In this document: positions 60,206 through 62,188 of the stretch, piece after piece
Layout: the number at the start of each line of letters is the position of its first letter
Position numbering within the stretch: the first letter of the stretch is position 1
Assembly (NCBI RefSeq): GCF_008275125.1
Contig: NZ_CP043473.1
Location: forward strand, 3,906,001 to 3,970,000
Length of the DNA stretch: 64,000 nucleotides
Direction of reading: 5' to 3'
From: Chromobacterium paludis
GTDB lineage: Bacteria; Pseudomonadota; Gammaproteobacteria; Burkholderiales; Chromobacteriaceae
Made by a program: the position numbers and the translations under genes
Notes under the pieces: model-generated
Databases searched by the model: none
What the model was told of the DNA's origin: nothing
The model's input: the letters and a program-made list of their open reading frames with translations, nothing else

Positions 60206-61606
60206 CTAACGCGGCGCGGGCGCGCAGGGCAGACGGCCGCTGCGGATGGCGGCGTCGAATTGCGCGTAGTCGCGCTCCACCTGGTCGGCGTAAGCCATGG
60301 CGTAGTCTGCCAGCGCTTGGTCGAGGCGGTCGGACTGGCCCAGATAGCCGGCGATCTCGGCCGCGCAGCCCCCGGACTTGGCGTGGGCGCGCGCCAGCGT
60401 CCAGGCGCAGGCCTGGCCGTAGCTGGCCAGCTCCTCGGCATTGGAGAAGGTTTCCAGCGCCGGCGCGGCCTTCATGTCGCGCAGCTGGCGTACGTAGAAG
60501 TGGCGGCCGTCCGCGCTATGGGTCCAGCCCAGGAACAGGTCGCTGGCGGCCTGCATCAGCCGCTGGCCGAACACCACGCGCTTGCCCTGGTTGCCGTGGA
60601 CGCAGCGCTGGGTGTACGGCTCCAGCACGGAAGGGCGCGCCTCCTTCAGCTGCAGGAACAGCGGCTGGTCGTAGTCGTCCTGCAGCAGCAAGACCAGGCA
60701 ACGGGTGCCGACGCTGCCGACGCCCACCACCTTGAACGCCGCGTCCACCAGGCGGAAGCGTTGCAGCAGTTCGCGGCGGTCTTCCTTCAGCGTGGCGATG
60801 TAGTGGTCCAGCATGTCCTGCGCCTTGGCCAGGCTGTCGTCGCCCAGCCAGTCGTCGCAGGCCGCCAGCGGGCTGTCGCGGCTGTCCAGGTGGAAGATCA
60901 CCGGCGGATTGTCGCGCAGGCGCAGCGCGCCGTCTTCGCTCTCCGTCATCTTGGGCAGCAGCCGCTCCTGGGTTTGGCCGCGCGCCTTGTCCGCTACTTT
61001 TTGCAACTGCTGGCGCATGGCCTCGCCCGCAGCCTGGGACAGCAGCTGATCGAAATCGACACGGCAATACCACAGCGCCAACTGGCTCATCTGCGAGAAA
61101 TCACGCAGGCGGCGACGATAAGTGCCTGCCAGGCGCAAGACGGTGTCGCGCGCCGCGGCCTCGCCGAAGCCGCGGCCGCGGCAGGCCAGCGCCAGGCTGA
61201 CCGCCAGCCGCTTGAGATCCCACTCCCAGGGGCCGGGATGGGTTTCGTCGAAATCGTTGATGTCGAAGACCAGCTGCCGCTCGGGCGAGGCGAAGAAGCC
61301 GTAGTTCATCAAGTGGGCGTCGCCGCAGATCTGCAGGCGGATGCCGCTGTTTGGGGCGGCGGCCAGGTCGGCGGCCTGCAGCATGGCGGTGCCGCGAAAA
61401 AACGTGAAAGGGGAGACGCGCATGCGGGCGTAGCGCAAGGGCGCCAGCGCCGGCACGCGGCCCTCTGAGGTGGACTCGACCATGGCGATCACGTCGCGTT
61501 GCGGCGCCAGGGCGCACTCGGCTTGGCGGGCGCGGGGACATGACTGGCGGCGCGCCTTGCCTGCGGCGTAGTGCTGCTCGTACTTGAGGTGATGAACGGT
61601 GGCCAT
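60206..61606 (-). CDS. DUF2252 family protein
   Basis: 466 residues starting MATVHHLKYEQHYAAGKARR at ATG 61606. PFTFFRGTAMLQAADLA (about 65-81), ICGDAHLMNYGFFASPERQ (about 92-110) and FDINDFDETHPGPWEWDLKR (about 113-132) are the DUF2252 core, which resembles aminoglycoside-phosphotransferase-like kinases (H-x5-N and D-x-D patterns). Function is unknown. The 225 bases upstream contain the DnaA-box cluster. An in-frame extension to 61702 would overlap that cluster and is rejected. Confidence 0.88.
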   Translation of the reverse strand: MATVHHLKYEQHYAAGKARRQSCPRARQAECALAPQRDVIAMVESTSEGRVPALAPLRYARMRVSPFTFFRGTAMLQAADLAAAPNSGIRLQICGDAHLMNYGFFASPERQLVFDINDFDETHPGPWEWDLKRLAVSLALACRGRGFGEAAARDTVLRLAGTYRRRLRDFSQMSQLALWYCRVDFDQLLSQAAGEAMRQQLQKVADKARGQTQERLLPKMTESEDGALRLRDNPPVIFHLDSRDSPLAACDDWLGDDSLAKAQDMLDHYIATLKEDRRELLQRFRLVDAAFKVVGVGSVGTRCLVLLLQDDYDQPLFLQLKEARPSVLEPYTQRCVHGNQGKRVVFGQRLMQAASDLFLGWTHSADGRHFYVRQLRDMKAAPALETFSNAEELASYGQACAWTLARAHAKSGGCAAEIAGYLGQSDRLDQALADYAMAYADQVERDYAQFDAAIRSGRLPCAPAPR

Positions 61607-61683: not shown

Positions 61684-61836
61684 TTACCCACAGCTTGTTC
61701 AAAGTTTATCCACATTATGCACAGGACGCTGTGGATGGCATGGCTTGCGCACAGCGTGACGCGGCTTTATGCACAGGTTTATCCCAACTTGTTCAGTTTG
61801 CGCACAGACTGTGGCGAATTGGGAAAGTTATTCACA
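61684..61836 (+). other. Cluster of DnaA-box-like sequences
   Basis: Perfect TTATNCACA sites occur at 61706 (TTATCCACA), 61715 (TTATGCACA, directly abutting the first), 61767 (TTATGCACA) and 61828 (TTATTCACA), all on the plus strand. Degenerate copies are TTACCCACA (61684), TTGCGCACA (61745 and 61798), TTATCCCAA (61779) and, inverted, TGTGGATGG (61730). CTTGTTCA is duplicated at 61694 and 61788, giving an iteron-like look. No long AT-rich unwinding stretch is adjacent. The last box overlaps the stop of the next minus-strand gene. Role: DnaA titration, DnaA-controlled promoter or origin-like site (inference). Confidence 0.75.
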
Positions 61837-62188
61837 GCGGTTTGGCGCCGCACTGGCGCAGCAGGCGTTTCCAGGCCGGGCTCAAGGGCAGGCCGTTCAG
61901 TTCCAGCTGCAGCTTGCTGCCCTCGCCTTGCGGCAAGATATCCACCGCCGTGCCGGAGGCGTCGCTGACCGGATTGCGCATGCGCAGGCTGCGGCTGCCG
62001 TCGCTGGCGTCGTGGCGTTCGATGAAGTCGGCGGGAATGTGCAGCTTGGCCAAGCCTTGCTGCAGGCAGTCGGCGACGGCATCTGGCGCATGCTTGGCGG
62101 TGAAGCCGGGATCGGCGGCTGCCAGCCGCGGCAGCAAGGCGGCCAGGATCAATAGGCCGGACAGGGAGAGGGGGCGGAGCTTGGACAT
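61832..62188 (-). CDS. Secreted hypothetical protein
   Basis: 118 residues from ATG 62188 with a good signal peptide (LRPLSLSGLLILAALLPRLAAA) and mature start DPGFTAKHAP. The mature domain of about 90 residues contains DAVADCLQQGLAKLHIPADF and a C-terminal Cys (LRQCGAKPL), so the two Cys may form a disulfide. No family was recognised. An in-frame ATG at 62218 is a less likely start. Its stop codon lies within the last DnaA-box-like site. Confidence 0.72.
   Translation of the reverse strand: MSKLRPLSLSGLLILAALLPRLAAADPGFTAKHAPDAVADCLQQGLAKLHIPADFIERHDASDGSRSLRMRNPVSDASGTAVDILPQGEGSKLQLELNGLPLSPAWKRLLRQCGAKPL

Follow-up and report, generated by a model that had tools for sequence, protein, structure and literature searches.

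What does a dense cluster of DnaA boxes do at a chromosomal site away from any dnaA gene? Such a cluster lies at 61684 to 61836 of a 64,000-nucleotide stretch of the Chromobacterium paludis chromosome (here called the window), and a sequence-only reading had offered three explanations for it: a datA-like titration site, a DnaA-controlled promoter of the DUF2252 gene, or an origin-like region. The comparison presented here favors the first and disfavors the other two, because the boxes are conserved head to tail, the array keeps a constant place near oriC, and as an intergenic element it has outlasted changes of its neighbor genes. We regard the array as probably, though by no means certainly, a datA-like site of DnaA titration or inactivation, a noncoding DnaA-binding control element. 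The control of DnaA is known in detail for Escherichia coli (datA, DARS, RIDA); in other bacteria, the use and architecture of noncoding DnaA sinks are much less clear.

All four perfect TTATNCACA boxes noticed earlier were found at the reported positions (Table 1), on the plus strand within 131 bp, with the second directly abutting the first. Together with degenerate copies, ten DnaA boxes fill the array: four perfect ones, one with a single mismatch (TTACCCACA, at 61684), four with two mismatches (61695, 61745, 61779, and 61798), and one with three. The earlier count of at least four near-matches thus holds at two mismatches (four sites) but not at one mismatch, where only the box at 61684 remains. 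A duplicated short sequence had also been pointed out; it is CTTGTTCA, present at 61694 and 61788. What had been missed is the duplication within the array: a five-box module occurs twice, as direct copies in a single orientation, with boxes starting at 0, 11/12, 22/23, 31/32, and 61 to 63 bp and with boxes 4 and 5 lying 30 to 31 bp apart. Other repeat elements were rejected as an explanation, the repeating unit being the DnaA box itself and the spacers being variable. The small-protein gene to the right matched no Pfam family at an E value of 0.001.

Table 1. Features of the DnaA-box array and its surroundings (positions in the window)
Feature	Coordinates	Strand	Remarks
DUF2252 gene	60206..61606	-	Pfam PF10009, 513 bits; left neighbor in Chromobacterium, judged to be outside the element
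Module A	61684..61753	+	Boxes at 61684, 61695, 61706, 61715, 61745; template fit, 5/40 mismatches
Perfect DnaA box TTATCCACA	61706..61714	+	Module A, box 3
Perfect DnaA box TTATGCACA	61715..61723	+	Module A, box 4, directly adjoining box 3
Module B	61767..61836	+	Boxes at 61767, 61779, 61789, 61798, 61828; template fit, 7/40 mismatches
Perfect DnaA box TTATGCACA	61767..61775	+	Module B, box 1
Perfect DnaA box TTATTCACA	61828..61836	+	Box 5 of module B; overlaps the small-protein stop codon
Small-protein gene	61832..62188	-	Right neighbor, judged to be outside the element; N terminus signal-peptide-like by eye

The genome-wide count of TTATNCACA, suggested by the sequence-only reading as a check, was 65 in the C. 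paludis genome (G000; a single contig of 4.28 Mb), or about one per 66 kb, and the reversed pattern was found 29 times. When 65 sites were placed uniformly 20,000 times, four or more never fell within 131 bp, and three or more did so 4 times. The window contained 5 perfect boxes, compared to 0.38 expected from shuffles; with one mismatch allowed, the whole window was not enriched (12 versus 12.8 expected). Counted by replichore fifths from the origin, the 65 boxes numbered 32, 17, 12, 3, and 1. This origin-ward enrichment is taken cautiously, since the reversed control pattern leans likewise (10, 8, 7, 2, and 2). The region from 1.12 to 2.37 Mb, which spans the terminus, had no TTATNCACA and four copies of the reversed control pattern.

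We analyzed the conservation of the module with a template of 40 informative bases at loci beside the small-protein gene, which was matched in 39 genomes, 30 of them contributing a locus. At least one module was detected in 29 of the 30 loci, the exception (G033) being without an array, and the 57 fitted modules had 3 to 12 mismatches. The best fit was 15 mismatches both in 580 arrays with bases shuffled in 60-bp blocks and in 40 background strand-stretches of G000 (14 to 20 kb), controls that ignore kinship among the loci. Since the template was derived from the same loci that were scored, these fits are circular, and the fair test is provided by three genomes used neither for the template nor for the sequence-only model of the module (R1): for the two modules, G038 scored 7 and 10 mismatches, G040 scored 6 and 8, and G044 scored 4 and 9. 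R1 was trained on 52 of the 57 fitted modules (L075A, L075B, L076A, L078A, and L079A were omitted). Its E values, which are rough due to a shortened calibration, were 4.8e-12 to 2.0e-6 in the three held-out genomes and, for the training members of the C. paludis array, 6.8e-15 for module A (G000, 3967682 to 3967756) and 1.1e-13 for module B.

The orientation of the boxes was strictly conserved: in the 29 arrays, 77 perfect boxes pointed in one direction and none in the opposite one. The start-to-start distance between the two modules varied from 83 to 129 bp, showing that the conserved unit is the module. Box likeness exceeded spacer likeness in four sets of modules (0.83 versus 0.58, 0.81 versus 0.43, 0.85 versus 0.40, and 0.97 versus 0.75), partly by construction, since the boxes were positioned by the fit. 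The sets were violaceum-type A (11/12) and B (12/12), Aquitalea B (10/10), and haemolyticum-type B (4/6), so that for Aquitalea and the haemolyticum type the comparison covers B modules only. Helical phasing of the boxes was moderate (coherence, 0.75 to 0.89) and was given no weight. In G004, one module was fitted in the 330-bp cut, and both were recovered by R1.

To follow the element across genomes, R1 was run on 61 genomes of the family and then, with looser filters, on the 29 of them that had yielded no pair. Two modules at one locus were present in 32 of the 61. The comparison within Chromobacterium that had been proposed earlier gave a pair in 18/19 genomes, and pairs were also found in Aquitalea (genus g2; 10/10), g7 (3/6), and g8 (1/1); the second match in G015 was shortened to positions 3 to 60 of 78 (58 positions). 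In the one Chromobacterium genome without the array (G013), DUF2252 and the small protein are missing as well. In 29/61 genomes, both runs of R1 returned partial matches or none, suggesting that the family can do without the array. In an order-wide sample, a pair was detected in 6/399 genomes, all of them within the family. R1 scored part of the first-look candidates per genome (77 in the family run, 150 in the looser rerun, and 11 in the order-wide run), so absences are weak, most of all order-wide, where 11 candidates per genome mean that families outside were hardly tested. The sole full-length match outside the family (G355) was discounted as probably the origin of that genome, since the stretch is AT rich, contains tandem repeats, and has boxes on either strand, and partial matches in G394 and G198 were left out of the count. 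At this discounted locus (L245), TGTGGATAA is repeated eight times, in two tandem series with a period of approximately 11 bp.

Since the array is located directly upstream of DUF2252 in 18/18 Chromobacterium loci and DnaA is a known transcription factor, we considered whether the array is a DnaA-controlled promoter that regulates the adjacent leftward gene, DUF2252 in Chromobacterium. The linkage to this gene holds within the genus but fails across the family. In 6/10 Aquitalea genomes, a hydrolase-like gene separates DUF2252 from the array; the 600 bp upstream of DUF2252 are without an array, which lies beside the small-protein gene instead. Outside the genus, at least three perfect or one-mismatch array boxes were present upstream of DUF2252 in 5/20 places (L033, L034, L037, L038, and L042). 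In the held-out genomes G038, G040, and G044 (assembly of the latter 80% complete, with 7% contamination), neither DUF2252 nor the small protein was matched. In G038 and G040, the array has a proA-like gene on one side and a tlyA-like gene on the other, both with their 3' ends toward it, so it is no promoter there, and in G044 it lies between aldo/keto-reductase-like and glutamine-synthetase-like genes. (These names, like hydrolase, waaC, and yceH, were assigned by eye from translations.) In G000, homologues of the glutamine-synthetase-like gene, tlyA, and yceH flank the array on one side, within approximately 9 kb, and proA is on the other side at approximately 6 kb. Because these homologues are found near the array in G000, the arrays in the three held-out genomes seem to be the same element by position, with changed bordering genes. 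The array is thus independent of particular neighbor genes, and its persistence while they change led us to reject the DUF2252 promoter as a general role; that regulation of the leftward gene is its function is unlikely, although a transcriptional role within Chromobacterium is conceivable.

The other explanation offered earlier, an origin-like region, was addressed by mapping the array relative to the GC-skew switch and to dnaA, and the array is neither at the origin nor beside dnaA. In sampled stretches of G000, negative skew extends to approximately 3.63 Mb, and values are positive from 3.655 Mb onward, placing the sign change at approximately 3.635 to 3.655 Mb; the reverse switch falls in the interval from 1.34 to 1.54 Mb. 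At approximately 3.6444 to 3.6451 Mb, upstream of a waaC-like gene, is an AT-rich region in which either strand carries perfect boxes and which represents the oriC region; the same arrangement was found upstream of this gene in 30/30 family loci (61 genomes have the gene). The distance from oriC to the array (3.9677 Mb) is 323 kb. The gene dnaA (3,814,548, confirming its absence from the window) lies approximately 170 kb from oriC (approximately 3644800). A second or relic replication origin would account for the density of the boxes, some of them abutting, and the oriC of G000 fits the module template at 13 mismatches, slightly better than the background (15 or more), so the module geometry is not wholly unlike that of an origin. 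However, the skew switch and the AT-rich box cluster are elsewhere, at the waaC-like gene, and the array lacks an AT-rich unwinding region, no part of it being as AT rich as oriC: the lowest 100-bp GC content was 40 to 52% near arrays versus 28 to 40% at oriC loci. Skew and base composition led us to reject this reading, which we consider highly improbable.

The distance to oriC was also compared between genomes. Eleven genomes have the array and waaC together on a contig that spans all or nearly all of the chromosome, and in 11/11 the array was detected on the same side of the waaC start, at a distance of 197 to 527 kb (5.4 to 9.9% of the chromosome; for G044, the percentage was taken over its contig). 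For 9 of the 11 (all except G038 and G044), the presence of oriC upstream of waaC was confirmed. In G015, whose partial contig was excluded from the percentages, the array is 380 kb from waaC on the same side. This constant place may reflect general synteny instead of dosage selection. It would also suit boxes that anchor DnaA for chromosome organization or segregation instead of initiation timing, a role that is less parsimonious than titration and that we consider quite improbable.

Returning to the favored reading, a site of DnaA titration or inactivation, we compared the array with known systems. According to the consulted sections of PMC5742627, the map position of datA of E. coli is 94.7 min and that of oriC is 84.6 min, the datA core is downstream of both its neighbors, and its essential boxes have the same direction, which suggests head-to-tail ATP-DnaA contacts. 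The array resembles datA as described there, since it is an intergenic DnaA-box cluster outside but near oriC with unidirectional boxes, at gene 3' ends. Furthermore, excerpts of other reports state that the relative distances of datA, DARS1, and DARS2 from oriC are conserved within E. coli (PMC4585315) and that the DnaA titration idea is supported for this species (PMC12371093). In B. subtilis and S. coelicolor, DnaA-box clusters that reportedly repress untimely initiation are called datA analogues (PMC5742627, in part), and the array can be likened to these Bacillus subtilis and Streptomyces coelicolor clusters by description. There are also differences. The array consists of two five-box modules, whereas the E. 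coli datA region scores 17/40 mismatches on the template, which is background. Moreover, E. coli datA requires IHF, while in the arrays the IHF consensus was not conserved: 23/29 had no site at one mismatch or less and 6 had one, at differing places, with weaker sites being possible.

The DnaA-oligomerization region of E. coli oriC, in which boxes are spaced by 11 to 12 bp, shares with the array the closely spaced, weak head-to-tail boxes. In oriC such boxes bind ATP-DnaA cooperatively, according to the part of PMC5742627 at hand.

A DARS-like role, in which the array would reactivate DnaA by promoting the release of ADP, was weighed against the orientation of the boxes. Two E. coli stretches which we take to be DARS1 and DARS2 each have one box facing two others at +14 and +26, and they score 16 to 19 mismatches on the module template. 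In line with this, box I of the DARS core has the reverse orientation of boxes II and III, as given in an excerpt of PMC5742627. DARS and the array are both noncoding box clusters with fixed spacings (PMC5742627, in part), but the opposed-box core is found in DARS only, and every perfect box of the array faces one way. On the basis of box orientation, a DARS core was rejected, and a reactivating function appears rather improbable. Its geometry, the lack of a conserved IHF consensus, and the lack of a head-to-head core set the array apart from both datA and DARS of E. coli.

How might a datA-like array work? Judging from the sequence, we infer that it binds DnaA, with a preference for ATP-DnaA, and titrates or inactivates it. 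The two five-box modules would offer ten head-to-tail DnaA sites in which strong boxes are interleaved with degenerate ones. Located at 5 to 10% of the chromosome from oriC, the array is copied soon after initiation. DnaA would then line up in a row on the doubled array, probably as ATP-DnaA at the weak inner boxes; this would titrate free DnaA and perhaps speed ATP hydrolysis by DnaA, so that a second early initiation would be hindered. Since Hda is encoded, the array would act in addition to RIDA, as a supporting device.

Among the matches listed, titles and abstract beginnings of the Chromobacterium, Aquitalea, Neisseria, Burkholderia, Ralstonia, betaproteobacterial, and DnaA-box-cluster literature describe no such element. 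For Laribacter, the available part of one report gives a predicted oriC with eight boxes and mentions no further cluster (PMC3135505). As a duplicated array with fixed spacing in several genera, the element represents a defined DNA for probing how box geometry relates to DnaA assembly and initiation timing. Tentatively, we also consider it possible that the array is a Chromobacteriaceae element of its own kind, in which an IHF-free, length-fixed, duplicated five-box scaffold would carry two ordered DnaA filaments and do the job of datA by another architecture, with lone box pairs spaced by approximately 30 bp as satellites.

Such lone pairs of direct perfect boxes, 29 to 30 bp apart, were observed at six places in G000: 120408/120437, 3619294/3619323, 3619427/3619456, 3636201/3636231, 3772980/3773010, and 4132915/4132944 (L007, L003, L002, L005, and L006). 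A seventh pair (3189223/3189253) is inside a polA-like gene (named by eye) and may be a coding coincidence. The lone-pair spacing comes near the 30 to 31 bp that separate boxes 4 and 5 within a module, and similar partial R1 matches were found in many genomes of the family. Finally, an inverted pair of perfect boxes with starts 27 bp apart was detected at 2403820/2403847 (L009, 5821 to 5856), near the start of a gene that resembles exbB/tolQ by eye, and the 27-bp inverted pair is also present in at least three relatives (G012, G020, and G023).
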